A stretch of DNA of 64,000 bases from Hirudinaria manillensis. Taxonomy: Eukaryota > Annelida > Clitellata > Hirudinida > Hirudinidae. Under the pieces are notes generated by a model. It was not told where the DNA came from. It saw nothing but the letters and a program-made list of their open reading frames with translations, and searched no databases. A program made the position numbers and the translations under genes. Location: positions 1,071,001 through 1,135,000 of the forward strand of contig CM067533.1 of the NCBI GenBank assembly GCA_034509925.1, written 5' to 3'. Numbering within the stretch: position 1 is the stretch's first letter; each line of letters begins with the position of its first letter. Below, in pieces: positions 11,478-55,601 of the stretch.

Positions 11478-28129
<16,652 letters not shown>

Positions 28130-31635: not shown

Positions 31636-32322
31636 CTATCTGTAGGGTGCCATCAGCGTCGTCGTCGTCGTCATCAACAGCATTATAGAAACCACAAGTG
31701 AAATCCAAGTTGAACCAAAGCTAACGGCCGAATTGCGTCTACGGCCATAATGGGATCCGGGAAACTTTGATCCATAACCGGGGCTATTAATACCTTTATC
31801 GTGGTTGTCGTAGCCAATTCCTGGATAAACGAACTGATTTCCTTTGTTATAACTCCACGATCTTGTCGTGATAGGCTTCAGAAAATTTTCGTTGTTATAA
31901 TGATTATTGAAGCCTATTGGTGGATAATTAGGTTGATTTCCGATATTTTTAGGTCTTACTGTTACAAAAGCAGGTCGATTTGTCGCTAACGCTTGCCAAC
32001 GTTTCTGTCTCTTTATCACTTCCAGCAGACTTGGTTTTGGTCCTTTTGCTTCGTGAGATCCAGGGAGATGTAAGATTGAATTCATTCCACAACGTGGATG
32101 TCTCACATCAACAGCCACCTCTTTGGAACGTTCGACTGTCTTTGCGTAAGCTTGTTTCGACGTATTTTCTGTAAGAATTAGGAAAATAAAAATATTAAAC
32201 TTGTAATGTTATTTAATACAACATTATTTAACATAATATAACAATATTTCTAAAAAAAAAGATTATAACTCACCTGTAGCAACTAAACATAGCAACAGAA
32301 GCAAAATGGCGAACACGCCCAT
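31636..32322 (-). CDS. Small secreted or GPI-anchored protein, cluster member A
   Basis: Two exons on the minus strand: 32322-32274 encodes a signal peptide (MGVFAILLLLLCLVAT) and ends in phase 1 before GTGAG. Exon 2, 32168-31636, starts after CTTACAG and runs to the stop, giving about 193 residues. After the junction comes ENTSKQAYAKTV, which resembles ETANQAYGIKI in members B and C. The middle is Asn/Gly/Tyr-rich (PNYPPIGFNNHYN, YPGIGYDNHDKG). The C-terminus has a hydrophobic stretch (WISLVVSIMLLM) followed by TTTTTLMAPYR, a less typical GPI signal than in the other members. Family unknown. Compared with its neighbours exon 1 is 49 rather than 43 nt. Confidence 0.6.
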
Positions 32323-32849
32323 GGTAGAGAAAATGTTCAATACTCAAAAGCTACGAAACATTCCGTAAGCAATTGAATTTTATCGAGTACTTAAATAGAG
32401 CTATACTTGATGAGACTTACCAAAGGAATTTTGTTTACGACAAGAAATATGTAATAGACAGATTTGCAGCCAGTACACAGTCACAGCTCTGTTTTCAAGT
32501 ACAGTGCTAGTACCACCACCACCATCATCATCATCACAATCATTGTTGCAAACAAACGAAAATACAATTAAGTCCAATCACAATTCAACTATTCCCCCAA
32601 AATATAGTGTTAGTATTTAGGATCCAGTACAACAAGTCTGGTATTTTAATAGCAGAGTCCCTAAGTATATCATGTAGAATAAAGATTATCCAACAACTCT
32701 ATATTTACCTAGTTAGTGGGATTCTAGATTTTTTCTCTCTTAACTTTAACACGAAAAACCAAAACCAATGGTTTTTGATTGCAAGTATGGCACCATTTTA
32801 CACTGCCAAGTTTTTAGTACAACGCTTGTTTGTACTTTTATGAAGGACC

Positions 32850-34905
32850 GGTCTTTGGAATTTTTAGAATATTAAGTATAAAATAAAAAAAACAAAGTGT
32901 TTCCATATTTGGGACATTTTCTAGAAAATTAAAGCGAATTATTTAACTATTTATTTAAAAAAAAGAAGATGTTTGAGCGTTTGGCTGACCTTTTTTTAGT
33001 ATCAAGTACTAGTAAAGTGGCCTGAGTAAAGTGCTCCCCTTCCCCACCAAAATCGAATTATTGAATTTGATGAATTTTATTGAACTCGAAGGGAAGCATC
33101 GGTAGGTGTCGCCATCAACATTAAAACAATTTTATTTATTCTGTCGTCACGAAATGAAATCAATCGAAAATAGGTCTTAAAGTTCTATTTAATGATCTTA
33201 AATGGACGATCTTGCAACTGGAAACAGAAGAAAAGGTTAGATTTAAAGAGATTGGAAGCTTTGGCTTAAAATTGAAATATGAATTTATCTAAAATCATGA
33301 GGCAGTTTGTCATGGACAAGGCGATTACATTCTAACAAACAAAGCCTGGGCACTATTTAAGTACTGTTATCAAAACCAAAGTGAATGAAGTAATGCATTG
33401 AAAACATGTGATGCTATTATTAAGTAGCAAAATGGTCAACAACAACCACAGCAAAAAATCGTCAACATGTCCCGAATTACTGGTTATTAATTGTTAAAAG
33501 AATTTTTAATCGTATCTTCATTTTTATCTATTTATTTTTTTATTTATTTATTATTTATTTTTGTATACACGCATTTCATTGCTTTTATAATTTAAAACGA
33601 TGCCATCACTGATACGACAGCAGCCAAGAACATGATGTTTGAGGGATTGATGCTGCCAGGTGAACTTGACTTTGTTGTTGACTGAGTTGTTGCTTCTGGC
33701 ACCGGATTCGTCTGATTCGGCAGATTCTGCAGATCCTTGAAATTCGGCAGATTCTGCAGATCCTTGATATTCGGCAGATTCTGCAGATCCTTGAAATTCA
33801 GCAGATTCTGCAGATCCTTGAAATTCGACAGATTCTGCAGATCCTGGAAATTCAGCAGACTCGGCAGCGTATCGTGACGCTTCAGGCGTTTTAGCAGAAT
33901 TCCCATAGATTCTGGACCTGTCGCTGCCTGATATTCTCCGACGAACTGCTTTTCCAGATCCTTTACTCCATCGGTGGAATTTACCTTGACATCTTTCAAC
34001 GGGGTCGACTCATTAATCTTTATGCCGTAGGCTTGATTCGCAGTCTCTGAATTGAAATTTTAGGATTTTTTGAAAAAATAAAGAGAAATCTAGGAGTTTT
34101 ATAAATTAATATAATAATATATCGTATAATAAGGGTAATAATTGTTTAATAAAATCATCATGCCTCACCAAAAGCGAACACGCAGAAAAGTAAGATGATG
34201 AACTTGTCCATGATGCTGCAAAGATGTTGTTTTTTGTCTGAAATTTCAATATGAAACGATTCCAATAACATTATAATAATGCAAATTAAACGTCCAAAAT
34301 AACTTTGATTTTAGATTTTATAGAAACAAATAACACAAGTGAAATTAACTTCAGTTAAAATGCAAATCAATTTAGCTTTTGTAAGATTATTATTTATTAT
34401 TATTTATGCGCAAAAAAAAAACTGAAATCCTTGCTCCCTGAAATTGTAATCGTAATGTTCTAACTTACTTCCTACCTCCTTGAGATTAACTTAAGCTCTT
34501 TTGAAAAGCAAAATTTTACATAAAATCGAAGAATCGTAGGCCTTTAATAGTTGTAAACGGATCAATATTCCTCAGAAGCAAAAGTATCAAGTACTCTCAT
34601 CTTGGTCTGCTCTTAAGAATACTCCACTCTTGTAAGAGTCTTAGTCTTAGTCATTAAGATAGAAATAGGAAATAAAATCTTTTTAATGGCTTGAATTTTC
34701 AATCTGAAGAGACTTTGCTACTTGCTTAGATTAAAGAGATTTGTCTGCAAATTGGAAAATAGTAATGATGTCGATCCAAATAATTTCGAATTAGCTTCCT
34801 AGGCGTTGAGTGTTGAGTGAATAACTGTAGGTTGCCGATTGAACTAACTGAAGAATGAAAATCAAGTTTTAAGATTTTTTTTAGATTTTAAATTGGGCCT
34901 ATTTT
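32850..34905. repeat. Segmental tandem duplication, copy 1
   Basis: About 2 kb that matches 35140-37060 at high identity, covering gene B, its intron, 5' flank and downstream sequence. Both copies end at TTAAATTGGGCC- or TTAGATTGGGCC-type sequence. The main differences lie in the coding stalk and in poly-A/T length. Confidence 0.9.
33592..34211 (-). CDS. Small secreted GPI-anchor-type protein with 9-residue repeats, member B
   Basis: Exon 1, 34211-34169, is 43 nt: signal peptide MDKFIILLFCVFAF plus one base (phase 1, donor GTGAGG). Exon 2, 34046-33592, begins after TTCAG and runs to the stop. After a conserved start (ETANQAYGIKINES, then LKDVKVNST) and a charged segment (ILLKRLKRHD) there are five to six tandem 9-residue units of the LPNFKDLQN type. 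A Thr/Ser-rich linker (TTQSTTKSSSPGS) leads to a C-terminal hydrophobic tail (NIMFLAAVVSVMASF) with no cytoplasmic residues, which fits GPI attachment. It is the tandem paralogue of member C. Function unknown; a cell-surface or secreted structural role is inferred from layout only. Confidence 0.75.
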
Positions 34906-35180
34906 TTTGTAATCTGTGGTTTCGGTTGGTTGGGTTGTCTTGACCGGTTCTGTGATTTTATCCTGCTCTGTTATTTTGTCTGGTCGAGCTGTTTTCACTG
35001 TGTATGTTACTTTATCCTGCTCTAGTATTTTGGCCGGTGGAATTGTTTTGACCGGATCTGTTATTTCTTCCTGCTCTGTTATTTTGTCTGGCTGAGATGC
35101 TTTGACTGGGTCTGTTACTTCTTCTTGCTCTGTTATTTTTAGAACATTAAGTGTAAAATTAAAAAAAAAACCAATTGTTT
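34888..35180 (-). pseudogene. Orphan exon-like frame with four 18-residue repeats
   Basis: On the minus strand an open frame ends at TAA 34890-34888 and contains four tandem 18-residue units of the type KITEQEEITDPVKTIPPA (54 nt each), then PTETTDYKKIGPI. It has no start codon or signal exon of its own. It lies exactly between the two duplicated gene units and ends at their shared breakpoint sequence. It resembles the stalk regions of its neighbours in style (Thr/Pro/charged) and is probably the leftover exon 2 of a third gene, or part of a longer ancestral one. Confidence 0.5.
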
Positions 35181-37060
35181 CTGTATTTAGGACATTTTCT
35201 AAAAAATTAAAGCAAATTATTTAACTATTTATGAGAATAAATAGATGTTTGAGAGTTTAGCCGACCTTTTTTAGTGTCAAGTACGAGTAAAGTGGCCTGA
35301 AAACAACAAAAAAAAACACACCTACAGTCGAATTTTTGAATTTGCTGAATTTAATTGAACTCGAAGGGAAGCATCGGTAGGTGTCGCCATCAACATTAAA
35401 ACAATTTTATTTATTCTGTCGTCACGAAATGAAATCTATCGAAAATAGGTCTTAAAGTTCTATTTAATGATCTTAAATGGACGATCTTGCAACTGGAAAC
35501 AGAAGAAAAGGTTAGATTTAAAGAGATTGGAAGCTTTGGCTTAAAATTGAAATATGAATTTATCTAAAATCATGAGGCAGTTTGTCTTGGACAAGGCGAT
35601 CACATTCTAACGAACAAAGTCTGGCACTATTTAAGTACTGTTATCAAAACCAAAATGACTGAAGTAATTCATTGGAAACATGTGATGCTATTATTAAATA
35701 GCAAAATGGTCAACAACAACCACAGCAAAAAATCGTCAACATGTCCCGAATTACTGGTTATTAATTGTTAAAAGAATTTTTAATCGTATCTTAATTTTTA
35801 TTTATTTATTTTTTTATTTATTTATTATTTATTTTTGTATACATGCATTTCATTGCTTTTATAATTTAAAACGATGCCATCATTGATACGACAGCAGCCA
35901 AGAACATGATGTTTGAGGGATTGATGCTGTCAGGTGAACTTGACTTTTTGCCTTTTGTTGTTGTCTTTGGTGTTGTTGTTGTTGTTGTTGTTGTCGTCGT
36001 CGTCGTCGTCCTTGCATCTTGACGCTTCAGGCGTTTTAGCAGAATTCCCACACTTTCTGGACCTGTTGCTGCCTGAGTTTCTCCGACGAACTGCTTTTCC
36101 AGATCCCTTATTCCAGCGGTGGAATTTACCTTGACATCTTTCAACGGGGTCGACTCATTAATCTTTATGCCGTAGGCTTGATTCGCGGTCTCTGAATTGA
36201 AATTTTATGATTTTTTAAAAAATAAAATTAAAGAGAAATCTAGGAGTTTTATAAATTAATATAATAATGTATCGTATAATAAGGGTAATAATTGTTTAAT
36301 CAAATCATCATGCCTCACCAAAAGCGAACACGCAGAAAAGTAAGATGATGAATCTGTCCATGATGCTGCAAAGATGTTGTTTTTTGTCTGAAATTTCAAT
36401 ATGAAACGATTCCAATAACATTATAATAATGCAAATTAAACGTCCAAAATAACTTTGATTTTAGATTTTATAGAAACAAATAACACAAGTGAAATTAAAT
36501 TCAGTTAAAATGCAAATCAATTTAGCTTTTTATTGTTATTTTGTATTATTAATGCTCAAAAAAAATCTAAAACCTGAAATCTTTGCTCCCTAATAATTGT
36601 AATCGTAATGTTCTAACTCACTTCCTACCTCCTTGAGATTAACTTTTGAAAAGCTAAATTTTTACATAAAATCGAAGAATTGTAGGCCTTAAATAGTTGT
36701 AAACGGATCAATATTTCTCAGAAGCAAAAGTATCAATTACTCTCATCTTGGCTCGTAGTCTGCTCTTAAGAATACTCCACTCTTGTAAGAGTCTTAGTCA
36801 TTAAGATAGAAATAGGAAATAAAATTTTTTTAATGGCTTGAATTTTCAATCTGAAGAGACTTTTCTATTTGCTTAGATTAAAGATATTTGTCAAAAAATT
36901 GGAATAACATTTTAGTAATGATGACGATCCAAATAATTGTGAATCAACAATGTTGAGTGACTAAATGTAGGTTGCCGATTGAACTGACTGAAGAATGCAA
37001 ATCAAGTTTTAAGTTTTTTTTTAAAGATTTTTTTTTTTAAGATTTTAGATTGGGCCTATT
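35140..37060. repeat. Segmental tandem duplication, copy 2
   Basis: Second copy of the unit at 32850-34905, carrying gene C. Confidence 0.9.
35866..36361 (-). CDS. Small secreted GPI-anchor-type protein with poly-Thr stalk, member C
   Basis: Exon 1, 36361-36319 (43 nt), encodes MDRFIILLFCVFAF with donor GTGAGG in phase 1. Exon 2, 36191-35866, gives ETANQAYGIKINES, then the same charged segment as member B, but the 9-residue repeats are replaced by a run of 13 Thr and TPKTTTKGKK. The C-terminal tail NIMFLAAVVSMMASF differs from member B at one residue. Signal peptide and tail are near-identical to B while the stalk has been swapped completely. No enzyme motif is seen. Confidence 0.75.
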
Positions 37061-37337
37061 TATTTATTTTTTTAAATCTTCGTTTAATTCCAAAAGCAAT
37101 TCTCGTAAATTTTACATTATTTTATGTTACTGTATTTCTGCAATACTTCGATCGGGTTTATTGATTGGTTAATTGTTGGAGTCAAGACAATATTTTATTA
37201 TTAAGGCACTATGAAGTCTGTAGGCCTTCAAATAACTAATTTAAAATAATTCATTATTGATATTGAGCCATCTTTTCGATAAACCCTGCACATAATATTA
37301 ATGTAATAATATCACTTATTAATTACTTGTTGATTAA

Positions 37338-38083
37338 TAATACTATTATTATTATTTATTATTTGTTTATTCATAATCACGGCTTCCGCCGGAGAACAGT
37401 GACCCCAGATCCCAACAAGGGATCACAGGTAGTCACAACATAATAAGCATAAATAAGAATAGTCATATACAAACGGAAATAACAAATAAAAACCCAAAAC
37501 TTAAACAAAGGATAATTAAATTGTACACGCAGTTATATACAATATCAAAATCATTGTCAGTTTAAGATTCTTCTTAAGATATGTGTGTCCCACACAAAGC
37601 GCTTTTCTGCGCCTCAAGAGGAGATGGATTTCCAGGGATGAGATAAAGGTAATCTTTAAATTTCTTTGATGGTATTCCTAACGCATCACTGTTATTACCT
37701 GATATTTCATCCCCCACATTCTCTGAATTTCAATTTGTGGATCTTTATACTTCGTTGATTTTTCCGTCTCCTTCCGAGTCACATTCACATCATCCGGGAC
37801 AGCAACATCAATTATTAGACAATTTCTTTTGTTCTTGTCATGATAGATGAGATCTAGCCTGTTTGCAGGCACTGTTCGGTCAATTGTTATTGGATAATCC
37901 CACATCAACACTCCATGGTCAAAATTTGTAATCCCAGTCGGTGCATTTCGCACAATTTGTAGGTCAGTGGGATTCCGCATTTCTTGTGAACTTTTCTCCA
38001 GTGAACATATCTAGCAATTCTGTTGTGCCTCTCTAGGTATTCTGTGGCAGCCAACAAGCTTGTTATTATTATCATTATTGTTC

Positions 38084-38126
<43 letters not shown>

Positions 38127-38165
38127 TATTATTATTATTACTCTAATATTACTTAATCTATTGAC
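37338..38165 (-). mobile_element. 3' remnant of a non-LTR retrotransposon
   Basis: On the minus strand two frames carry C-terminal LINE protein motifs: LLAATEYLERHNRIARYVHW (38055-37990) and, in another frame, VPANRLDLIYHDKNKRNCL and IQRMWGMKYQVI (37980-37678). They resemble the 'NRPDIV..DK..K.CLLIDVAVP' C-terminal region found in R2/NeSL-like or related LINEs. A 3' UTR follows, with GGGATCTGGGGTCACTG, an AATAAA, and an AAT-repeat tail near 37338. The break between frames and loss of the reverse transcriptase core make it a dead 5'-truncated copy. An (ATT)n tract at 38065-38145 marks the 5' side. Confidence 0.65.
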
Positions 38166-39325
38166 GGAATGCAACTCTCTTATAAACTCTCGAATTAGTG
38201 GAATTAGTTTTTATCTAAGTGCCTTTTTTACTCTTTATTCGCGCCCTATTCCTGCTTCCCTCAAAACGTACATCTTCCTTGGAGTGGCGGATGAACATGA
38301 ATCAGTTAACCTCAACGTGTCAAATAATTAGGCGAATTAATTGAATTATTTGGCTTAAATCATACTTAAGTATATATATATTTAACCGGCTGTTTATTTA
38401 ATAAAAGAGTTTCGTGATAATCTGATTGTTGCACCAGGGAGGTGTTGAGGAAGGATGGCTTGGTAGCGCTTAGGAATGACTTGATCAAAGATTGTCAGAA
38501 AAAAGATATTTTATAAGTATTAAAAATCAGTTGAAAATAAACACAGTTCAAATAACGTTTCAATCTTACTAAAGTCGCCATTAAATTGGAGTAAGGTTTA
38601 TTAAATGTTTTTTGTTAAAAAGCAAAGCAGATTTTCTTGTTAATTTCTTGTTAATTAATAAGAAATGCTATTATCAATGCCAGTAATAAAGTTTTAGAGA
38701 AGGTGCCTCTGACAGATGAGGAAGTAGTTGTGGACTCTGGCTTTCGTCCTGTAGTTACTATGGTTGTTTCTAGAGTAGCTTGAGTTGAGTTGCTTGGATG
38801 GGTTGACTTGGGTGGTTCAGTTGGCTGGGTTGGCTTGGTTGGTTGGGTTGGTTGGGTTGTCTGGGTTGGCTTGGTTGGTTGGGTTGGTTGGGTTGTTTGG
38901 TTTGGTTTGGTTGGTTGGGTTGTCTGGGTTGGCTTGGTTGGTTGGGTTGGCTTGGTTGGTTGGGTTGTCTGGGTTGGCTTGGTCGGTTGGGTTGGCTTTG
39001 TTGGTTGGGTTGTCTGGGTTGGCTTGGTTGGTTGGGTTGTCTGGGTTGGCTTGGTTGTTTGGGTTGGCTGGGTTGTTTCAGTTGGCTGGGTTGGCTTGGT
39101 TGGTTCAGTTGGGTGCGTTGGCTTGGTTGGTTCAACCTCACCCTTTTTCATTACATTCGATTCGCAGCAGGTTACTGTTGTTTGAATTTTGAAATATTTA
39201 ATAATAGAATTTTATTCTTTTAAATATTTAATAATGTAACCAACAATAAAGACACAAAAAAATTCAGCAAATAACAAATGTTCTTACTGAAGACAGCCAA
39301 GACCAAAATCAAAGTGAGTTTATTC

Positions 39326-42300
39326 CTTCATTAACACAAAAAACTGAAAAGAGCAGCAGAAAACATAAAACTCAAAGGGCCAGCCTTAAGGAAGCACACG
39401 CTTCCGCTAGTAGACTGACCCATGAAACACAATAAGCACAAAAAAATTAGGAATGATGGTATATAGTTGATCCGACAGATTATAGTTAGTTTAATCCGAT
39501 AGAGTTAATGATGAAATGTTTTAATGCTCTCTTATAACCATAAAGATTAGAAATGTTGGTAATATTAATAGGAACAGCAGAGTAAATTTTTGGTCCCATA
39601 CAGACAATAGAACGAGAGCCAGTGACAGATTTAGCAAAAGTCGGTCTATAATTATTAGACGTTCGAACAGAGTATTTGTGCAAGGAGGATATTTTTGAAA
39701 ACAAACTATCGAAAAGACGAGGCAGCATGTGATGATCTACTTTATACATGAGAATGGCCAAATGGAAATTATTAATTTGATGAATTTTAAGTATGTTTAA
39801 ATTTGTAAATGCATAATCGGTATGAGAATTATATGGCAAACAAAGGGCAACACGTAAGAATTTTTTCTGAAGATTAAGTAAAGGTTTTAAGCAAGTTGAG
39901 TAGTTACAAGCCCAAATTAAATTACAATAGTTTAAATATGGATAGATAAATGAATAATACAATGTAATTACTGTTTTTGTATTTATATAACGACGTATGC
40001 GATAAATTAAGCCAATATTTTTGGAGATCTTTGCTGCTATGTACTGAATATGTTGTTTGAATGACAGATGCTGGTCTATAATGACGCCAAGGAATCTACA
40101 AGATTCAACCCTAGATATAGAAGAATTACTAATATAAATGGTATGATCGTCCAAGACGAATTTTTTCCTTGCTTTATGAAAAAACATGTATACTGTTTTT
40201 TTAGTGTTGAGAGACAGCAGGTTTGCCCTAAACCATTCTGCCAACTTCTCAAGTTCAGTATTCATGGTAGAGTAGAGTTCAGTAATATTATTTCCAGACA
40301 GAAAAACAGTTGTGTCGTCTGCGAACAGTAAGCACTCAAGACGATCCGAGGAGTTACACAAGTCATTGATGTAAATCAGAAACAATAGTGGCCCCAAGAC
40401 TGAACCCTGTGGAACACCCAGGTTAACAGCACCCAACGACGATGTTTGATTTGCAAATGAGACCATCTGACTCCGGTTTTTTAAATAACTTTCAAACCAA
40501 GAAAAACATCTTCCTCGGATACCATAATGATGAAGTTTTTCCAGGAGAATGTCATGATTGACTGTATCAAAGGCCTTGGCAAGATCCAGAAACACTCCAA
40601 TGGTAGATTGACCTTGGTCCAATCTGTGAGAGATTTTCGTTTGGAGAAGTGCGATTGGCATGTATGTTGAATGGTTTTGTCGAAATCCGAATTGATTATT
40701 TTTTATAATGGAATGTTTTTCAAGGAAAGAAATTGTTCTATTATATATTGCTTTCTCAAAATATTTGGAGAAGTACGGAAGAATAGATATGGGCCGATAA
40801 TTAGCGATGTTTTCCTTGGAGTCTGATTTATACAGTGGGATAACTTTGGCAATTTTTAAGTCATCGGGGAAGATACCGGAGCGGAACGAGCAGTTGATAA
40901 GTGCCGCGATGATCTGGGCAATCCCAGGTATTGACAGTCTCGCAAGGGCTGGATCAATCTGATCATATCCGGAGCTGTGGGATTGCTTAAGAGTTCTTGA
41001 TATTTGAATAATTTCTTCAGGAGTAACGTCGTTTAGGTACATAGATTGAGAAACAGGATTTCCGAGATACTGCTTGTAAAAAGTACTGCCTGGTGTTATT
41101 TTTTGGGCAAGTTTTGTACCAATTGAAGCAAAGTATTCATTGAACGACTTAGCAATTTCGCTTGGTGTGGTTAGTGGCTGACCGTCACAATCGTAAAAAG
41201 CACATGGAGGGGGTTGATACCTTTCTCGACCTAATAGCAGCTTTAACAAGTCCCACGTTTTTCTGATGTTGTTTGAGTATTCAGTGAATTTTTCTGAGTA
41301 GTAACGTTTGATGGTTTCATCTTTGACGCTTTTGAATCTATTCCTGTATCCAATGAATTTTGATTTATTTTCAGTTGAGGGATCTTTCAAAAACTTTTTA
41401 TAGAGATTGTTTTTTTTTTTGCATGATTTTAGGAGTCCCGGAGTCATCCAGGGTTTTTTGAAACGATAACATTTTGTGCGATGAGGAACAATATGAAAAC
41501 ATTTGTTGTATACTTCATAGTACACATTAATAAAGGATTGGTATGCTTTAGAAATCTCCAGAGTCTTGCAATAACGCAAAATTTCAGACCAATCCATTCC
41601 CTCAATTTCTTCAGTAAATCTAACAATGCTTTCCACCGTATGCACTCTAATAGGTGAAGAAATTGGTCTGTGGTAATTGAGAACACTAGCACTGAAGGAG
41701 AAGTAGATTGGAAGATGATCCGAAATGTCGTCTACTATAATTTTTGAAAAACTGTTTCTGTCGAATACATTCGTGAAGATGTTATCGATAACGGTCGCGC
41801 TCTTTGATGTTATTCTTGTTGGTTGATCAATTTTGGGGTGTAGGCAATGACTTGATAATGTCGTTAAAAACTCCTGTACAGGGGTGGAATCACTTGTTAC
41901 GTCCAAATTGAAATCACCCAACAACACACAATCTCCATTTTTTTTAATCTGGTCAAGCATGACTTTGAGCTCCTCACTAAAAAGTTGTAAGTTGCTTTTA
42001 GGAGGTCGGTATATGACACCAAGTGTAACCGTGGTGTTGAGTAACTTTAAATTCACGAACATGCTTTCAAAGGTCGCAGCAGCAGAATGACGTTTTATTA
42101 AGGAAAACACAATATCCTGATGAATAAAAAGTCCAACTCCTCCACCCCTCTTTTCAGATCGACTTGTTGCAATAAACGAGTAGCCAGGAATACAAATGGA
42201 ATCACAATTACTATCATTCAACCAGGTTTCAGTCACTGCAATTATTTTGGCTTTTATCCCATTATTCAGTATATTGATGTCGTTTATTTTGTTTGGTAAA

Positions 42301-42899
42301 CTTCTACAATTTATATGGAGAAAAGAGATATCATTTGGAATTTTTGGCAGCCCAGCAAAATCTTCAGGTGTTATATATGAATGTTTGAATTCCTTATTTA
42401 TAAAATTATAATCTGGGTCAATATCCTCTAATTGAAAAGCTGAGTCTTCTTTATTATAATCAAAATCAAAATCCGAAACAGAAGCCATCTTCATGGGGGA
42501 AAACATAAAATTTCTTGTCTTAGACCAGCTTCTCCAGCCCGTCCAAGTCCTGTACTCGAACGGGCCTCGAAGTTTCAGCCTTCCTGAGGTATACTGAACC
42601 ATTCCATGTCCAGACTGCTGCAATTTTTTTCTCCCTAAGCAGTTTCCTTCCTTTTGCAAATATCTCTGAGTTTCTCTTTGTGAGATGTTCATTGACGAAG
42701 ACTTGAGAGTTGCCGCGTGTTCCACGAAGTGCTTTTTTTGCTGCATAGTGAGATTTTCCATTTTATTTTGAAGTTGTTCCTTTCAAATTTCTTCGAAAAA
42801 TAATGGCTAAATACATACGTTGTAAGTGATTGAATAGAAATTGGCAAAATGTATTCTGCATTTATCTCCCAGACATAAAATTCAATCGATCCATCATGG
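39326..42899 (-). mobile_element. Full-length, intact CR1/L2-like LINE
   Basis: About 3.57 kb with one long frame (42761-39486, 1,091 residues) and short UTRs. The ends are proposed from a 4-bp direct repeat GAAT (minus strand) at 42903-42900 and 39325-39322. I see no poly-A tail; the 3' end is TTAATGAAGG. Confidence 0.65.
39486..42761 (-). CDS. LINE ORF2: endonuclease-reverse transcriptase
   Basis: A 1,091-residue protein with no internal stops. An apurinic-like endonuclease (EEP fold) lies at about residues 145-355: FLHINCRSLPNK, AVTETWLND, GGGVGLFIHQD, VIYRPPKSN, LLGDFNLDV and SDHLPIYF, with all catalytic-type residues present. A reverse transcriptase follows at about 650-900: YRPISILPYFSKYFEKAI, FLDLAKAFDTVNHD, VPQGSVLGPLLFLIYINDL, the catalytic FADD box LLFADDTTVF, and FLGVIID. 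The C-terminus has SVRTSNNYRPTF. It nicks target DNA and reverse-transcribes its own RNA there. The motif set fits the CR1/L2/jockey superfamily. No separate ORF1 is seen; the ~145-residue N-terminus is lysine-rich at first and unrecognised. An intact frame suggests recent insertion. Confidence 0.95.
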   Translation of the reverse strand: MENLTMQQKKHFVEHAATLKSSSMNISQRETQRYLQKEGNCLGRKKLQQSGHGMVQYTSGRLKLRGPFEYRTWTGWRSWSKTRNFMFSPMKMASVSDFDFDYNKEDSAFQLEDIDPDYNFINKEFKHSYITPEDFAGLPKIPNDISFLHINCRSLPNKINDINILNNGIKAKIIAVTETWLNDSNCDSICIPGYSFIATSRSEKRGGGVGLFIHQDIVFSLIKRHSAAATFESMFVNLKLLNTTVTLGVIYRPPKSNLQLFSEELKVMLDQIKKNGDCVLLGDFNLDVTSDSTPVQEFLTTLSSHCLHPKIDQPTRITSKSATVIDNIFTNVFDRNSFSKIIVDDISDHLPIYFSFSASVLNYHRPISSPIRVHTVESIVRFTEEIEGMDWSEILRYCKTLEISKAYQSFINVYYEVYNKCFHIVPHRTKCYRFKKPWMTPGLLKSCKKKNNLYKKFLKDPSTENKSKFIGYRNRFKSVKDETIKRYYSEKFTEYSNNIRKTWDLLKLLLGRERYQPPPCAFYDCDGQPLTTPSEIAKSFNEYFASIGTKLAQKITPGSTFYKQYLGNPVSQSMYLNDVTPEEIIQISRTLKQSHSSGYDQIDPALARLSIPGIAQIIAALINCSFRSGIFPDDLKIAKVIPLYKSDSKENIANYRPISILPYFSKYFEKAIYNRTISFLEKHSIIKNNQFGFRQNHSTYMPIALLQTKISHRLDQGQSTIGVFLDLAKAFDTVNHDILLEKLHHYGIRGRCFSWFESYLKNRSQMVSFANQTSSLGAVNLGVPQGSVLGPLLFLIYINDLCNSSDRLECLLFADDTTVFLSGNNITELYSTMNTELEKLAEWFRANLLSLNTKKTVYMFFHKARKKFVLDDHTIYISNSSISRVESCRFLGVIIDQHLSFKQHIQYIAAKISKNIGLIYRIRRYINTKTVITLYYSFIYPYLNYCNLIWACNYSTCLKPLLNLQKKFLRVALCLPYNSHTDYAFTNLNILKIHQINNFHLAILMYKVDHHMLPRLFDSLFSKISSLHKYSVRTSNNYRPTFAKSVTGSRSIVCMGPKIYSAVPINITNISNLYGYKRALKHFIINSIGLN

Positions 42900-42905
42900 A
42901 TTCAT

Positions 42906-44760: not shown

Positions 44761-44761
44761 A

Positions 44762-44969
44762 GGTGCTTACGACATCGCAATCTTTTCAAGAACTTGGTCA
44801 CAACATTCAAGACAAACAAAATTGATTTTTATTTTTTATTTTAAGCAACTTTTCAATTGTTCTGATCAATTTATTAATAACGACGACCATGAGGATGATG
44901 ATCTCAAGAAAATCTACTCGGTTGTTGAGACCAATGGAAATCACAGATCACTAATCACGCCATTGCTCA
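44762..44969 (+). pseudogene. Possible orphan plus-strand exon(s)
   Basis: After the acceptor-like TTTTTCACTGGTTGCAG and again after TTTTTATTTTTTATTTTAAG there are short open stretches. The second (44845-44969) reads NNDDHEDDDLKKIYSVVET and ends at a donor-like CTCAG/GTTAAT. Codon content looks protein-like, but there is no partner exon, start or homology I recognise. It is the only plus-strand coding hint in a block of minus-strand genes. Confidence 0.25.
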
Positions 44970-45092
44970 GGTTAATTAACATTTATAGACCACAAAGCAA
45001 ACCAGATAGCAGTAGGTTAATCGATATTCAAATTATAAATTAAGACTTTAGTCATATTAATTAATAGTTTCTAATCAATTAGAATTCCCTTG

Positions 45093-45625
45093 TTAGAGGA
45101 CTAGCAACAGAGCGGCTAGTGTAAATACGGCCTTGAAGGGGCTGATAGAAACGCCAGAAGAAGCAGTTGTTACAGATGGTCCTTTAGTTGTTATTTCTCC
45201 AGTTACTCCGGTTGGATCCGACGAAGTTGGTCCTGGGTTTGCCGTCGTAGTTGTAGTTGTTGTAGTAGTTTCATTTTCTGGTTCACCACTCCCAGCAACT
45301 CCAATAACGATTTCACCTGCATCGTTGTCCAGAAGTGAGCACAAAGTTTGATCTGTCATCTCTAGTTTACACGAGTCCGAGGGTAGATTTAAAAAAGGGT
45401 TTAAAAAATATTTTAAAAAATATTAGAAAATATTTATGAAAATATATTATGATTAAATTATGTTAAATATATTACATCATAAATATTAAAGATAATAAAA
45501 AAAATAAATTTAAAAAAGATAATAATTCATGAAATGTCGTTAATCTTATCGAGATGACAGTCATACAGGAAATCCAACTCACCAAAAATGGCCAAGCAGA
45601 AGACGATGATGAAGACTTTATTCAT
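45093..45625 (-). CDS. Small secreted GPI-anchor-type protein with Thr stalk, member E
   Basis: Exon 1, 45625-45583 (43 nt), encodes the signal peptide MNKVFIIVFCLAIF and ends in phase 1 at donor GTGAGT. Exon 2, 45361-45093, starts after AAACTAG and gives EMTDQTLCSLLDNDAGE, then a nine-Thr run and a Pro/Thr/Ser stalk (PTSSDPTGVTGEITTKGP). The C-terminus VSISPFKAVFTLAALLLVL is hydrophobic and terminal, as in GPI signals. Total 103 residues. No known family recognised; one Cys in the mature part. Gene architecture is identical to members B, C and F. Confidence 0.75.
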
Positions 45626-48236
45626 TGTTATGATTTGATTGAGAGATTTCTTTAATTTTTTTCTGTAATTATTTTTAAAATTTGATTAATTAATTTTTAA
45701 AGTTGAAAAATAATTTAATTTTCTTCCGAATATATGGTAAATCTGCTTGCTTCAAGCGACGATTTTAGATTTCTTTAACGAAAATATAAATATAAATATT
45801 CATTAATTGACAGAAAATTCTTTCTAAATGTAAATAACCTGTATCAGTTAAAAACATATCTTATTTATTTCTAAATGTAATAAAATTAATTATTAATACT
45901 ATTATAACTTATATTAATTAATAAAAATATTACTATTAATATTAATTATTAATAATATTTTTTTTTTACAATATTTAAATTCATTTCTTAAACTTAAAAC
46001 ATTAAGAAATAGAAATATCAGTAATGATAGTATCATTTAGACCAAATGTTATAACAATACCGAAATCCACAAAATGAAATCAGTTGAACAAATTGGTCTC
46101 AACATCCAAACTAAAAGTCGCTTATGAATAAAATAATTATCAAATGAATATTAAACTAGCATTTATCTATTTATTAATAATAAATATATTAATATTTAAA
46201 TAATTTAAATAACATTAATCCATTCAAATTTGTATCTATTAAATAAAAATTAATAATAATAATAATGATAATAATATATTTAAATTATTCAACTCAATAA
46301 CGTAATAACGTTCTAATTAACTAATCCAGCAATTTTAACCAAGATTAAAATTAATAATACCAGATATCCTACGTCTGAACTGACAGCGACTTCGATCCGC
46401 CTTCGAATGACAATTTAAATGAACCCGATTCTGTGGATTTCAGAGAGATAAATAGCTCGATACCTTAACAGATTAACAGCTACGTTATAAAAAAATTCCT
46501 AGAAAAAAAAATTAGGCACTTCATCGTTTCTAAGTTTCAGGCCGGTTAGATGGTCTTAACTGGAGTTTAGGCAGGAATATATGAAATTTGAAATATATAC
46601 GATTATGAATCATACATTAACTTAGTAATAATAAATAATAATATAGTAATAATAATAATTCTTATTATAATCATAATAGTAAATTAATATCCTCTTTTTA
46701 GAAATGCCAATCTGGGACAGATGGAAATATCCTGATTATCTCTCGATAACTTCCATTTTAATATAACATATTTGTTTCTCCAATTTCTATTTATTTATTT
46801 ATTATTATAACCTTATTTCTTATTATAACCTTATTTCTTATTATAACCTTTTAATAATCTGCCGAAAGTCTGAAAAGACTTTACCTTTTGCATTCAAATG
46901 AATATGTCTTACGTAATTTTTTTTTTCTTGAAAAGAGGATTTCAAGCCGTTATCAAGTTAACTGCGCAGAATGAATAATTCTTATCACAATAAGATTAGC
47001 GCTGCTTCCATTGTCTCAAAAGGTACTTGTGTACTTTTTATGACGATGACGACGACGATGACGATGATGATGACGTTTATGACGTAATTATAACATCATT
47101 ATCTTGCTTTCAAGAGGGCAAAGAAGGATCCACCAGTAAGTGGATGAGCCTGATTGGGGATTGATTGGAATTTTCAATCAATTATGTTGATTATTGGTGA
47201 TTTGAATATGTTATTCTACGGAAAATATTTTTAAAAACCAACTTAATAAATCAATAAAAATAAATCTGCAGATTATTCAAGATTCAACAGTTACAGAATA
47301 CAGGGAATACTGAATACGTCAGTGATATTAATATCAACATACAATTAAAAATGATTTAATAATAATAATAATAATAATCCAGAAAATATTCAATTTACTA
47401 TTTAAAAAATATTAATTAAACATGCAATTGCTTAGTAACTGACGACCATTATTCAGTTACGTGAGTAGATTAGTTAAGCTTTTGAAGGTCGTGACCTTGA
47501 AGTTTCGATGTTGGTCACGAGATTGGTTTATTTATAATTAACGCGCGTGATTTATAATTAACTTTAATTAACCATTGAGAAAATGGCGCCACTTTCCACG
47601 GATTTGGTTGGGAGAATATATTCAATAAATGTCGTATATTCATATGAAAGAATGTATTTAATATATTTCATTGCGTTCAAATTTAAAATTAAAATTTATA
47701 TAAATTTAAATAAATATTTTATTTAAAAAAAATCATATATTATTATTATTAAGAATGGTTTTCGATCCCAATATTCGTTATTTCCAGCTTCTCTTTTGGA
47801 CAATACGCTGAAAAGAGACATTTTTCAATACATTGAAAATATAATATGAATATAAATATGAAAATATAAATATGAAAATATGAATATGGAAATATAAATA
47901 TGATAATATTTTTCAACTTCGAAATCCACTTTTAGTAAAAGTTGAACTGTTTTATCTTTTATTTTTGATAATTGTTGAAATTAACTTTTAATTTTTAATA
48001 ATCCGCGAAATTCATAATTAGTCCATTTGGTAAAATAATGATTTGTAATTTAAATCCTTTTTAATATAATTCTTTAGGCTAAAATGTAGAAAATACCAAT
48101 CCAAGGTGTCAAACATAACGTTGTCGACATGTTTTGTATATCTTTGTTGCTCGACCAGAACAACAATAAAATTTAAACTCAAACTTAATATTCAACAATA
48201 GATAAAAACACAAACGAAAAGATTCATTTAACATAA
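45626..48236. other. AT-rich region, no gene seen
   Basis: Noncoding by inspection. A GAC/GAT tract lies at about 47040-47075. GCCACTTTCC at 47587 and TATA-like runs are not distinctive enough to call. Confidence 0.5.
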
Positions 48237-48242
48237 TTTATT
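48237..48242 (-). promoter_or_regulatory. Polyadenylation signal AATAAA, member F
   Basis: Minus-strand AATAAA about 130 bases past the stop codon of member F. Confidence 0.5.
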
Positions 48243-48371
48243 TCAATTCACCCATCAAAATCACAGTCCAATTAAACCCAATTATGCAAATCGCCAGACA
48301 TTTACATTGAAGAAAGAAAACAAAAAACATGATCAAATGACTTCATCAATATTCATGAAATTAAAACAGGC

Positions 48372-49062
48372 TTAATAGCCCAAGACCATCTTGGCTGCTG
48401 CAGCTGAGAAGAGCAAGAGGCTGACTGGTGTCAAAGCGGCCGATGACGATGGAGCGGTTGTGGTGGCTTCAGCGCTGGTAGTGGTGGCTTCAGTGCTGGT
48501 AGTGGTGGCTCCACTGCTGGTAGTGGTGGCTTCGGTGCTGGTAGTGGTGGCTTCAGTGCCGGTAGTGGTGCTCGAGGGTTCTGGAGTCGTTTCTTCAAGC
48601 TCGCCAAACTTTACCTTGGCTTGGGCGATTTGGCTGGCTGAAAAGTGGATGGAAAAGGAATTGTCATTTTTAGTCCGATATTCGTCATCACATGCGTCGT
48701 AGATTGTTAATGTTTTGCCCGAGCTATTTGAAAATATTGTTGGTATTAAAATATGGCTATAACTTACTTTGTTTATATTTATTTGTCTATATTTAGTAGA
48801 AAGCGAGATAAATTTTTTTTTTGTACTTAACCCTAAAGCTCTATTTAAATACCATCACAATTTGAACCACTGTCTTGATATCAATTCATATCCATCGATT
48901 ACACTCGATAATTTATAAATGATAACTATTATATTGTCTAAATATTTATAAAATATATATAACACTTTTAAATATATGTAATACGTTTATGTTTAATACT
49001 TTTAAAATATTAGACTTACCGATAGCCAAGACACAGAGAGCGAGGAAAACGTATTTGTTCAT
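48372..49062 (-). CDS. Small secreted GPI-anchor-type protein with TEATTTS repeats, member F
   Basis: Exon 1, 49062-49020 (43 nt), encodes MNKYVFLALCVLAI with donor GTAAGT in phase 1. Exon 2, 48637-48372, follows a strong acceptor (CCATCCACTTTTCAG) and reads ASQIAQAKVKFGELEETT, then five tandem TEATTTS-type units (21 nt each), PSSSAALTPVSLLLFS and a terminal AAAAKMVLGY. About 102 residues. A Thr-rich, probably O-glycosylated stalk with a hydrophobic end suggests a GPI-anchored mucin-like surface protein. The acceptor could lie further upstream, but only this one keeps phase. A 5' UTR intron is possible (acceptor TTTTTTATAG at about 49090; upstream donor AGTTCAG/GTGAGA at 49568). Confidence 0.7.
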
Positions 49063-50330
49063 GGTGACTGAAAATTTCGGGACTTTCTATAAAAAAGAAA
49101 AAATATAAAGTTAATTGAAAAACTAACAAAACTTAAAACTCAATGCTTCGAGAAATTCATCGGAAAACTAATTTATATCATTTACTTGAAATAAAATATA
49201 ATTCGTGAAAATATTTTTTAATTCACGCTAAAAAAAATGTAACGATATTCTTTCTAAAGAATTTATAAATTTTAATAAATAATAATAATAATAATAGAAC
49301 TTTAAATTGATCCTAAAAATGTACAGAAAATGTATAAAGGACGTCTCAGACCATTTATAAAGATGCGACCATCATTAATACATTCGTTTATTTTAAAGTC
49401 ATAATTCATAAATTTAACTCCCTCGCTGAATAATCAAAAATAGATTCTATTTTAAGACACACGTCAAAATAATCCTTTGCAAAAAATACGATTTAACCAT
49501 TAATATATTATAAACCAAAAAATCCAAACAAAACAACTATTGAGACTGGCAATGTCTAAATTCTCACCTGAACTCTTGCTTAAAGCAAACTTCTTGAACA
49601 ATTGTGACTTATCATCGAGGAAGACACCCCAGCATTTATAGACGACCAAATTGGCCTGGCAAAATACCACTCGAACGAAGATGATCTGTGATTGGTCGCC
49701 AGAAAGTTTGTCTTTGCATGCCAACAGCTGTCATGGGTCTTAAGACATGGCTTCTTAATGTATGCAAATGTTTAGATTTCCGATTCAAACATAAGATACG
49801 TGCTTCCAAACAAGGGGTAAGAAGATCCAAAATTGAGCAACTCAGCGTTTTTTTCTAGCGACCTGTTAATACTTTCCTGTTGTTGGAATATTAAACTCTC
49901 CTTTTTTTTAATTTTGAAAATTTTATGAATGAAAATCTAATCGAAGATGTGAAACAAAAGAGAGCCAATTTGCCAATTTGTAGAGCAAAATTACCAATTT
50001 GAAGATTTTAAATACTACGGTTCATTTTGTGTACCGTCTAGCGGTACGAACACCTTTTTGGGGCAGCATTATCTGGTACTAATATTATATATTTAGTTTA
50101 TTATATTATGCATATTCTTTCAGAATCATCGTTTTCATGCATTTTTTGTATTTATAAATTAAGATTAAATCCACAATGTCAATACCAAAGCTCCAAAGCT
50201 CACCAAAGTGGCTGGAATTTACGTGAGCTTAATTAGCTTAACGACAGGTTAAGAATTTCAAACCTCTTTTAAGGGCTTTTGATTTCCCTGGTGATTCTTT
50301 GCTAGGAGAGGCATTCCAACATCTCTTGGT

Positions 50331-50349
50331 ATTATTATTATTATTATTA

Positions 50350-50415
<66 letters not shown>
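50331..50415 (+). repeat. (ATT)n microsatellite
   Basis: About 28 units, one interrupted. Confidence 0.95.
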
Positions 50416-50417
<2 letters not shown>

Positions 50418-52344
50418 ATTATCATCGTCATTGATCTCTATTCAAATACTTGAGACCTATCGGTGCTCGAAACGTTTCAAAGTGGAAAGCGATTTCGAAC
50501 TTTACGATTCATCTGCATTGTCCTTGACTGATTTTTACCTTGATTAGTCATTCAGGTGAGTGGAAGACAGTGCTTACTGATTATCATCTGATTCACGGTC
50601 TCACGTGTGGAAAGGAAGTGATATGTCGAGTGCGCTGCGTGTTTGTGTCTCGCGAGCCCACATCAGAGGCACATATAAATATTCAAATGTAAGTTATTCA
50701 TGTATTCATGGGTCATATGAATATGGGATATGCTAATGTATGTATGGTTCATTTGCATTGAGCAAATGTTTCTCATACAAGTTTTTTTGTGGTGGTATGC
50801 CACTATGAATTTCCATTAAACATTTACAAAAAAGTTAAAGCTAGTGTAGATCTGGTTTCTCGATCCGATTAAGTTAAACAAATTATTTTAAAAAATATTT
50901 ATAAATCTTGACGGTTATTCTCATATTTTCACAAAATATATTTGCGTTACTAGCAAAACCACAACTAATCAGAATAAATCATTTCATTATAATGTCTATA
51001 TTATTTATTAAAGCAACATCAAGGAGATGATAATGACAAAATGATAACGTAATGGTAACAGAATACTTATGTAACAGAATACTACTTGTACTGACGCTAA
51101 TGTTACGAAACTTAGATTGATGGCGCTGCATAAATGGAATTATTGAATGGATTAAATGTTTCGATTGTCTTTTGAAATTGATGGGCATTATCGGCATGCA
51201 ATATCTTTTCTTGCATTTTCCTTCAGATTTCTCTGTATCTTATTTCGGTCAGTAATCTTGACGGCATTGCTTATGGCTACCACAGTGTCTTTATATCCTC
51301 TTTGCAAACTTGCGCACCATAAATATATACGTGCGTGGATAAATATTAATAATAATAATAATAACTTAATAAATAAATAAGTTTATATCCTTCCCTCCAC
51401 GTTAATTTAGCTGTTAGCTGTTGACCACGGCTTTCAGTTCAATTAAGTCACATGTTTAATATGTTTATCAATTTATTTATTATCGGTGGGATTATTATTA
51501 TAATTACTATTTAGAACGAATCCGTGGTCTGTCATCTGTGGTATATCAACGAGTAAGATTGTTGTTGCAAGATCTTTTCCCAAAGATTAGAGACAGGGAT
51601 GTCCTCTGCAATATAATCATAATAATAATCAATACTAAGCATAAACATTTAATTTTAATTACTTAATCAATGACTAACTCATAGAAAATAAATCACAGAT
51701 TGTTTAGCATAAGAGATCTAAATAAAGAAAGCAATCCATTACTGGAAGCAGTTCCAAGAATGGCATTGTGTCTAGCCGAATATCATCTCCATCAACGTAA
51801 TGTTATTCAATACTAACACAGACTCTCAAGAACCAAGAGCCTTCCTAATTGAATTGATCTCAACAATAAACCTACAAAGCTCCTGAGATCCACAACTCTT
51901 AAAGGTAAATTCCATCACCTGAGGCATTGGACACCCATCAGGTTGAGATGACCAGCAATTAACTGACCTACATTGCGTAACATGGCCCAGAATGACCATT
52001 AAGTTTAAGTGAAGACGTGACCGTGACATTCTCTTACGTAATCCCCGTGTGTGTCATGGAAATTTAAATGGTTGATTGGTTGAGTGATTGGTGAGTTAAC
52101 TCCTTTTAATTAAATGGAATGCTCGGTCGGAGTAGGTCAATGTGATCAATTTCAAAGCCATTTGCGGTGCAATATCGGGTCAACATACCCGAGGTGCCCT
52201 GACTAAATACTACTTAATAGGGAGTCTGAACTGGCCAAGACTAACGCCGTAACCAATAAATCAGCTTTATACCCTTCGAAATCGACAGCTAGATTGGAAC
52301 AGCCATCTAGCCGCCAGGCGACTGCTAACATGGCTAGCTAGCTG

Positions 52345-52418
52345 GAGCATCGATGCTCTTTTACCTAGTGAATGCTAACATCTAACATCTAAGAACAAAG
52401 AGCTATCTGTTAGATGTT
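52345..52418. other. Palindrome and stem-loop in a GC-richer island
   Basis: GAGCATCGATGCTC (52345-52358) is a perfect 14-bp palindrome. AACATCTAACA (52377-52387) pairs perfectly with TGTTAGATGTT (52408-52418) around a 20-base loop. CTAGCTAGCTAG-type sequence lies just upstream. No open frame accompanies them, so this could be a short non-autonomous element or a structured noncoding RNA. Confidence 0.4.
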
Positions 52419-53872
52419 GAAACCGGTCTAGGGCGGTCTCACCTTCAAAAGGGTATTGGGCACCTGCACGTATGGCAACAAAGGTGTCAGAGGTGCAGTG
52501 AAAAGGCCAAATTTAGAAGATCGCTTGGCTGTTGTCAGTGATGAAGAAGTTTGGATCTTTGCTTATATTTAAAACTCTCTATGGGTCTTTGAGAACAGAA
52601 GTGGTTCACTTTATAAACAAGTTTTTTTTTTACAGAGATTTCGAGACAAGACCATGACCAAGAAATAAAGAAATGAATTAAACTGTAGAAGCAGAAGATT
52701 AAACCTAGACTTAAATTGGTCTTAGCAGAATTCTTCTGAACTTATTTAATGTTTATCTCCGATGTATCACCGATGTATCACAAATGATAGCTGAAACAGC
52801 AATTACTGTTTCTCATGGATGGATGCATAGGTGACAGAGCATGGATGAAAGCATTGGGAGATCCTAAGGTATTCCAAGATTATGAAAGCAATTGAGTTCA
52901 TAATTTTAAACCTGTGCCTGGATAATCCGTCACCACCACCATCATCATCTTCATCATTATCCAGGCTGGTACGGACGAGGGACTAACATGCAAGTGACAT
53001 GCAACTAAGCTAAGCGTCACCATACAATATCCACACACCATTAACAGCTTTTAAAATGTTTTATCTACTACTTTATCTTGGATGAAAATAGATATCTGTC
53101 TGTCTGTTGATCAGACAATATAGAAAAAAATCAATTCTATTAACAACTTGGTTAAATACCAAAACCTCTCTTTAAGTTAAATGTTAAATATTTTGGACGA
53201 AAAGCAGAATTCAATGACATTCAAAGTTCACAGACGAACCAAGCAAATACCAACAACAAAAAAAAGAACATCCCAAATTCTCAGCCCAGATGTAGCGATG
53301 TTATAGCAAAGTTCTGGGCCCGCATGAAGTCGTGAATTGTGAATTGGTGAATTAGTGAATTGGTGAATGCTCGACAAGAGGGAATTGTTAATGCATTCAA
53401 ATGAATTATTAATGCATTCAAATGAATTCCAGTTCTTTTTTCCCCGTGTTGAATAAAAATAGGCATGCAAGTTATAATGATGGTGCTTTATTATAAATTA
53501 AAAATTATTAAAAATAATAATTAATAATAATAATAATAATATTGATGATTATTATTATAAAAAATTATTATACAATATTATTACCATACAATTATTTATA
53601 AAATGAGGTCATGGAATTGAAGAAAAAAATTATGCAAAAGATTATAAATTGAATGAATGCATGCATGACAGAACGATTGAGTGAGTGGATGAATGAATGA
53701 ATGAATAAATGAATGCATGCATGCTTAATTAAAGACATCAACTAGATGTTCTGTTCAAGATCAACATTGTAGCAAACCCGCAGACACATTGAAGGGAATT
53801 GTTATTATTATTATTATTGTTATTATTTTTTTCTTATAATATTATTATTACTACCACGGCCACCACCAGTGA

Positions 53873-55601
53873 TTACACGGCCATCACCAAAAGCATGGAT
53901 AGAAGCAACAGCAACAATGTAAGCAACAACTCCGATGATAAGAACTTTGTTGATGATGTTGACCTTGACTCCAGGGTCACCGTGCAGCACCCCAGTCTGC
54001 CGCCGGCATTTCCGGTGGTGCTGCTCAGGTTGTGAGTGGTCTTTCCGAGGTCGTCCTCCATGGCGTGAACCTGTTGTGGGCAAGCGAGGGAGATGAGGGA
54101 GATTTGCATAATCGAATAATCATGATTTCCAGCCAAAATGCTCAATAAATTTATTAAATCGATATTAAGGAAATAATATGGATATATCCTATTCATAATT
54201 ATGTAACAATTGCATAATAATAACTTAAATAATAATAATAATAATAATAATTATCACAATAATAAAAATAATAATTAAACTAATAATAATAATAATAATT
54301 ATCACAATAATAAAAATAATAATTAAACTAATAATAATAATAATAATAACCTCTAGTTAAATATAATTTTCAATAATTATTCACATGTGGCCGTAAGTCC
54401 ATGAACCTACCACAATCCCTCTTCCAATGATGCTGTTGTTAGAACTTGAAAGAAGAGAAATAACGGTATCATTGATCGTCACTGACACAGTACCGTTTGG
54501 TTGGACCACGATATTGCCCAAGTCCCCTACGTGCCTGGCGTACGTAATAAATAAGTTATTGTTAAAGAATTACGTAATTAATTATCGTTAATTGTTAGAT
54601 TATTTATTAATATTAATAATAACAAGTATACCGTGTGTGATAGCTAAATTATTAGAGGTGCCAAGAATTACCTTAACAATTAGCTTTAAATATCTTTCAA
54701 TTGATAATAATAATAATAATTATTATTATAATAATAATAATAAAGACAGTTAAGTGACCTCTTGTCAAGACCATCAGAAATATTGCCGTGAGGGACGTTG
54801 CCGGGATTGAAGTGGGGTCCACAGGAGTTGCATTTGTCAGTGAGATTTCCACTTTGATGGACGTGGAAGCCATGTTTGGTGGTCACGTTACTGAGAGGGA
54901 AACCAACCAAGTCCACTTTGACGGTCACATTTGAACCCTGGGGATTGGGATAGGGTGACGTGGGGAGAAGATCGATTTTATACAGGTTAATGTGCTTGTT
55001 ATTATCGTAAATTATTAATAATTGGCTAATCAATTGATTGGTGGTGATTGACAATAATAACAATAATATGTCATTTATATAGCGCCGTGCGCGTGAGCTA
55101 CTTGGTTGTTTTGCTATTGTCCGTTCGATGGTAATTATAGATTGCTTTTATTAAATTATTTATTTATTAACGATCATATAATTAGGTAAATGATAGGTAA
55201 TTGGCTAAACAAATAAATATCTTTTACTTATTTATTTATCAATTTTATTTTTATTTCTTTCTTAATTCTTTATTTTATTTATTTATTTATTAATTAATTA
55301 ATTTATTCAGTATTTGACCTACCGTCTGCGTCAAGCTGATGTTCCCCGACACATTTCCTATTCCGCTACCTGCTGCGATCACGCAGGTGGCCTTGATGAC
55401 GTCATCAGCAGACGACCCATCTGTTCATGAACATTAATGAGGGTAATTTGTTAATTAATTTAATAATAACTTTAATAAATTTAATATAATAATTATAGCT
55501 AAATTGAACATCACATTAAAACAAATTAAATGATGTTTCTCACCAAATGCAAGGAGTCCAAAAACTAGGCACAACGAGAGACTGATTCTCAGATGAAACA
55601 T
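53873..55601 (-). CDS. Extracellular Cu/Zn superoxide dismutase with C-terminal GPI-type tail
   Basis: Five phase-consistent minus-strand exons: 55601-55544, 55420-55323, 54937-54759, 54534-54411, 54070-53873; 218 residues. A signal peptide ([19 protein letters not shown]) ends in a phase-1 intron. The SOD fold follows: [18 protein letters not shown] with the first two Cu ligands; CGPHFNP with the bridging His; [11 protein letters not shown] with the Zn His and Asp; [10 protein letters not shown] with the last Cu His; and GNAGGRLGC with the active-site Arg and the second disulfide Cys. All ligands are present, so it should convert superoxide to peroxide and oxygen outside the cell. About ten N-glycosylation sequons are unusual for SOD. 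After GRLGC the usual GVIG ending is replaced by a Ser/Thr linker ([14 protein letters not shown]) and a pure hydrophobic tail ([18 protein letters not shown]), as in GPI signals. A short terminal membrane anchor is the alternative. Confidence 0.9.
54230..54352 (+). repeat. AAT-rich tandem duplication
   Basis: Two copies of a ~47-bp unit containing TTATCACAATAATAAAAATAA in an SOD intron. Confidence 0.8.
55045..55130 (+). repeat. Short dispersed-repeat-like segment (TTTATATAGCGCC)
   Basis: AATAACAATAATA followed by TGTCATTTATATAGCGCCGTG in an SOD intron. An (AAT)n run next to a TATAGCGC motif resembles the ends of small dispersed repeats common in invertebrate genomes; the element is too short to classify. 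Confidence 0.3.

Follow-up and report, generated by a model that had tools for sequence, protein, structure and literature searches.

A cluster of short minus-strand genes for predicted GPI-anchored, mucin-like surface proteins in the leech Hirudinaria manillensis

Gene content of the locus

The window analyzed here is a 64,000-nucleotide stretch of the Hirudinaria manillensis genome (C8:1071001-1135000), and the genome searches covered the assembly of 148,429,096 bases in 23 contigs. Six short genes, termed A to F, and a neighboring Cu/Zn superoxide dismutase (SOD) gene lie within about 24 kb of the window, all on the minus strand (Table 1). The flanking regions contain a kinesin motor exon and genes for a DUF4211 protein and TFIIF beta. 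Rfam and tRNA scans returned no matches.

Table 1. Features of the gene cluster and its flanks; positions are counted from the first base of the window.
Feature	Position	Strand	Description	Basis
Kinesin motor exon	13443-14114	+	Flanking gene	Pfam
A exon 2	31636..32168	-	N-terminal region to RQKR, Asn/Gly/Tyr-rich body, hydrophobic tail with terminal Arg	
A signal exon	32274..32322	-	49 nt, phase 1	Phase-1 scan match
B exon 2	33592..34046	-	Conserved N-terminal region to RLKR, 9-residue (27-nt) repeats, GPI-like tail	
B signal exon	34169..34211	-	43 nt, phase 1	Phase-1 scan match
Open stretch between C and B	34888..35139	-	54-nt repeats	
C exon 2	35866..36191	-	N-terminal region and tail as in B, Thr run as stalk	
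C signal exon	36319..36361	-	43 nt, phase 1	Phase-1 scan match
D exon 2	38651..39174	-	Pro/Thr/Lys/Gln repeats, GPI-like tail	Tail rule
D signal exon, second piece	39288..39313	-	About 26 nt, putative	GTAAG donor at 39287
LINE inside D signal exon	39315..42747	-	Reverse transcriptase and endonuclease	
D signal exon, first piece	42748..42761	-	14 nt from ATG	End set by LINE edge
E exon 2	45093..45361	-	Thr-rich stalk, GPI-like tail	From first acceptor
E signal exon	45583..45625	-	43 nt, phase 1	Phase-1 scan match
F exon 2	48372..48637	-	TEATTTS-type 21-nt repeats, GPI-like tail	
F signal exon	49020..49062	-	43 nt, phase 1	Phase-1 scan match
SOD gene	53873..55601	-	Cu/Zn superoxide dismutase, five exons, GPI-like tail	Pfam, PDB alignment
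SOD exons	55601-55544, 55420-55323, 54937-54759, 54534-54411, 54070-53873	-		
DUF4211 protein	60284-61780	-	Flanking gene	Pfam
TFIIF beta	62662-63432	-	Flanking gene	Pfam

The SOD gene encodes a complete Sod_Cu domain (PF00080, 130.3 bits against a cut-off of 28.9, profile positions 1-132 of 133) and has a signal peptide. Its five exons, full domain, and PDB alignment led us to reject it as a member of the family, and it is an unrelated neighbor, an ordinary Cu/Zn enzyme whose phase-1 signal exon is of the standard kind. The product is possibly a cell-surface-tethered animal SOD. A second Sod_Cu locus is present on contig C4.

Homology to known domains was rejected on the Pfam results for A, B, E, and F and on the PDB result. 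In Pfam, A and B had no match at E 1, and E and F scored below the cut-off; the PDB search gave nothing meaningful, its one match (E 0.07) falling inside the repeat part. The scores of E and F for the trypanosome mucin family PF01456 (17.4 and 16 bits, respectively) are far under the cut-off of 34.7 bits, and neither was accepted as a member. Genome searches at the DNA and protein level, in which the top candidates were scored, found no extra copies of B/C, A, E, or F; further copies elsewhere were rejected, the scored candidates being weak or low-complexity matches. Genes A to F most likely constitute a small lineage-specific group. A literature search combining leech, GPI-anchored, and mucin gave no leech surface-protein title among the matches listed.

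Two observations concern the assembly itself. A nuclear copy of COX1 at C9:3026446-3027786 shows 5 differences from the mitochondrial contig over 1341 bases and reflects either recent insertion into the nuclear genome or an assembly error. The mitochondrial contig, of 15,581 bases, starts with COX1, and its AGA/AGG and ATA codons, set against known COX1 sequences, fit the invertebrate mitochondrial code (code 5) best, which gave no backing to an ascidian or a sponge/cnidarian origin.

Signal exons and their clustering

The first exons are short and, measured to the GT donor, have the lengths given by the first-pass annotation: 49 nt in A, 43 nt in B, C, E, and F, and 58 nt in the SOD gene, all in phase 1. 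The 40 nt reported for D once its LINE is set aside were also recovered, as 14 nt plus about 26 nt, the pieces being read by eye. The donors of exon 1 in A, B, C, E, F, and the SOD gene are GTGAG or GTAAG, and a rule-based scan detected an N-terminal signal peptide in the same six genes, D being interrupted. The M[ND][KR] starts described for the whole group are present in B, C, E, and F and absent from all other members.

The phase-1 scan picked out six candidates in the window, every one an exon listed above; background sequence from this genome, sampled as 24 stretches of 10 kb each (4 adjoining the window), yielded two in 240 kb. Redrawing the 24.1-kb cluster 40 times with an order-2 Markov model gave a mean of 0.075 phase-1 candidates and a maximum of 1. 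Outside phase 1, the window contained 6 candidates in phase 0 and 5 in phase 2, compared with 11 and 2, respectively, in the background, and nearly all of these came from microsatellites of ATG/ATT type. A strict scan returned six candidates in the window versus one in 200 kb. The second-exon rule applied automatically in that scan passed four of the six (E and SOD failed) and not the single background candidate. The acceptor of B exon 2, picked by eye, is accepted by this rule. When the hydrophobicity cut was relaxed and all phases were allowed, there were eight candidates in the window and eight in 240 kb. A second exon with a tail followed six of the eight in the window, where the one assigned to the SOD is a spurious frame and those assigned to B and C start from an AG later than the acceptor adopted here, and two of the eight in the background, both in a microsatellite. 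A loose donor gave 45 candidates in the window versus 69 in the background; the enrichment thus depends on a proper donor consensus. Since B and C are duplicates, the 43-nt exons represent three independent cases (B/C, E, and F). The exon layout is confirmed as real and above chance.

Upstream of the signal exons, B, C, and F have TATA motifs at about -111 and -115, among them a TATAAAA that precedes the ATG of B by 111 nt; the same pattern found none in A and E.

The layout as such has precedent. PMC1626468, which credits Tordai and Patthy, describes phase-1 introns as over-represented close to the signal-peptide cleavage sites of vertebrate and arthropod genes, at about codon 20, and ties this excess to glycine codons at proto-splice sites. 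Given the general excess described there, such a layout is expected of secreted proteins, whereas tight grouping within 24 kb is not.

Second exons, stalks, and C-terminal tails

Exon 2 was said always to carry a low-complexity body. Two corrections apply: the body of A is Asn/Gly/Tyr-rich and not a simple repeat, and the SOD has no low-complexity body. In E, a second in-frame acceptor puts the start of exon 2 at 45316.

All seven hand-picked C-termini pass a GPI tail rule, as do 65 of 1026 ORFs of ≥60 aa from the background; the rule is home-made and crude, and was calibrated on background ORFs only. The GPI-like tails noted earlier are therefore plausible by this rule, with the exception of A, whose tail passes but ends in Arg, making a GPI signal doubtful there.

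The RQKR of A and the RLKR of B and C occupy the same position in the alignment of the three proteins, at the end of a region of about 58 residues. This RxKR sequence, which we take to be a furin-type motif, may be a site at which that region is cut from the tethered stalk. The region could even be the active product of A, B, and C, with the stalk as a membrane-held remnant, as in a peptide precursor. Besides the shared place of the motif, such a role is favored by A and B being most alike before it; however, no motif of this type was noted in E or F, and the region itself had neither a Pfam match nor a PDB match outside the repeat part. We regard precursors of this kind as quite unlikely.

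Duplication of B and C and replacement of the stalk

B and C, spaced by 2,150 bases, form a 2.15-kb tandem duplicate. They differ at 35 of 556 positions upstream, 2 of 43 in exon 1, 5 of 122 in the intron, 12 of 177 in the first part of exon 2, 2 of 82 in the tail, and 13 of 466 in the 3' flank. In the middle of exon 2, between these alignable parts, B carries an array of 27-nt repeats and C instead a Thr run. The constant ends and changing stalk that had been proposed for the cluster are thus seen directly in this pair. The coding lengths are 129 nt apart, a multiple of three, and the frame is kept, whereas indels in the flanks are not multiples of three.

Exon shuffling, one of two origins suggested for the stalks, was rejected on the B/C alignment, where the changed stalk is internal to exon 2 and flanked by conserved parts of the same exon. 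With the stalk and the tail encoded in a single exon, shuffling bounded by introns cannot exchange the stalks. Repeat turnover, the other suggestion, is able to change stalks inside exon 2, and expansion and contraction of repeats would be the simplest account. ACA-rich sequence adjoins the tail in both genes, and the Thr run could have arisen from it by slippage. The 54-nt-repeat open stretch between C and B, for which no signal exon was found, is probably a relic of another stalk.

Across 99 alignable codons, B and C differ by 12 nonsynonymous and 3 synonymous changes (a ratio of about 1.15), and their coding parts diverge at the same pace as the intron and flanks. The fast evolution ascribed to the cluster is compatible with this ratio, which an absence of constraint would fit equally well.

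Interruption of D by a LINE

D is interrupted in this assembly by a young LINE inserted into its signal exon. The element is near full length: at least five copies elsewhere in the genome extend over this span as well, reaching within 7 bases of the 3' end, at 95-100% identity, the closest among the matches listed (best 40 of 145 candidates) being 100% identical. CTCAC occurs on both sides of the insertion; since the other copies align to 39315, the target duplication is limited to 1 to 5 bases of it. The reverse-transcriptase/endonuclease frame is open, and a near full-length copy on contig C5, at 100% identity, suggests recent activity. At C3:13267648-13300879, three LINE fragments of equal span at about 16.1-kb spacing suggest a tandemly repeated segment.

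The interruption of D, together with the relic between C and B and the B/C ratio, could mean that some or all of the genes are pseudogenes, their triplet-type repeats staying open by chance. Against such decay, A, B, C, E, and F each keep an ATG, a donor, and an open second exon, the frame was held in B and C despite quite different stalks, and the TATA motifs persist in B, C, and F, though that pattern found none in A and E. We consider decay unlikely.

Sequence kinship among the genes

As judged from the alignments, the kinship of B and C is certain. That of A to B/C is suggestive only: A aligns with both from the split codon to the RxKR motif, with shuffle p values of 0.0046 and 0.0056 for the N-terminal regions compared end to end and of 0.022 and 0.059 for local alignments, and a protein search of the genome with B did not retrieve A, nor did one with A retrieve B.

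The links of D, E, and F to the other genes are weak or nil and stand as unproven. In composition-keeping shuffles over 21 pairs of tails, the raw p values were 0.018 for B-E and 0.0125 for B-F, 0.10 (E) and 0.069 (F) with C in the place of B, 0.09 for E-F, and 0.21 for D-E. The signal-peptide cores gave 0.008 for B-F, 0.049 for B-E, and 0.40 for E-F. The second-exon starts of D and F reached 0.012 in one of ten local tests, which we read as shared composition. Among 40 DNA comparisons that included upstream and downstream sequence, one was below 0.05 (exon 1 of A and B), followed by the E-F upstream (0.053) and A-SOD upstream (0.06) pairs, and no shared upstream or downstream elements were found. 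The single family of seven proposed in the first-pass annotation is not supported, with D, E, and F unjoined on sequence, A suggestive only, and the SOD an unrelated enzyme.

These values bear on whether unrelated genes for secreted proteins merely adjoin by chance, each with a generally common phase-1 start, so that the family would shrink to B and C and perhaps A. The general phase-1 excess near codon 20 that PMC1626468 describes for vertebrates and arthropods speaks for such convergence, as do the unrelated SOD gene that starts alike and the lack of a significant link for D, E, and F given the number of tests. It would, however, have to pack six signal exons into 24 kb of a single strand, versus two in 240 kb, to reach the 43-nt length three independent times, and to supply all members with GPI-like tails, among which those of B, E, and F are weakly alike. 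We judge convergence possible but doubtful.

Proposed products and comparison with known systems

Our preferred reading, to which we give a probability of roughly 0.6, is that A to F are short genes for orphan, mucin-like, predicted GPI-anchored surface proteins with repeat-driven stalks. The six genes would encode secreted proteins of roughly 100-190 residues, the short phase-1 exon specifying the signal peptide and, after the predicted splicing, the second exon the stalk and a C-terminal signal, to be replaced by a GPI lipid anchor. On this model, the products stand on the outer cell face as extended, mostly Ser/Thr-rich stalks, probably O-glycosylated, and may form part of the glycocalyx or a mucous surface. 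The cluster would have grown by tandem duplication at least once (B/C), with gain and loss of tandem repeats within exon 2 altering the stalks.

B and C make a natural before-and-after pair, in which a stalk was replaced between near-identical ends within a recent duplication. If expressed, they would show repeat turnover diversifying animal surface proteins in a medicinally used leech. The layout is general and implies no new exon-shuffling system.

CD52 and CD24 are small GPI-anchored mammalian sialoglycoproteins encoded by a signal-peptide exon followed by a short exon. Like the proposed leech products, they are tiny, secreted, glycosylated, and GPI-anchored, with a two-exon start; their mature parts are far shorter than the leech proteins, and the likeness is one of architecture, with no sequence relation seen.

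The animal signal-peptide exons of Tordai and Patthy, as cited in PMC1626468, likewise have a phase-1 intron at the cleavage site, although around codon 20, whereas the introns of the leech cluster mostly follow codon 14. In Trypanosoma cruzi, according to PMC8591177, MASP proteins have conserved ends and a variable center, and TcMUC genes encode Thr-rich GPI-anchored mucin backbones. The proposed leech products would be like them in both respects, but these protozoan families comprise hundreds to over 1300 genes, compared with six in one animal cluster, and no homology was seen, as the PF01456 scores of E and F indicate. With such phase-1 introns and MASP ends on record, the earlier statement that no described family has this layout was too strong. 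There is a slim chance that the leech locus is a small animal parallel to the trypanosome coat, in which signal exon, cut site, and GPI tail are fixed and the stalk is swapped between neighboring genes, and perhaps between individuals, under selection for diversity.

The GPI-anchored adhesins of yeasts and other fungi are unlike the leech genes in being cell-wall proteins with ligand-binding heads and in lacking a signal exon; their stalks likewise vary by gain and loss of intragenic tandem repeats.
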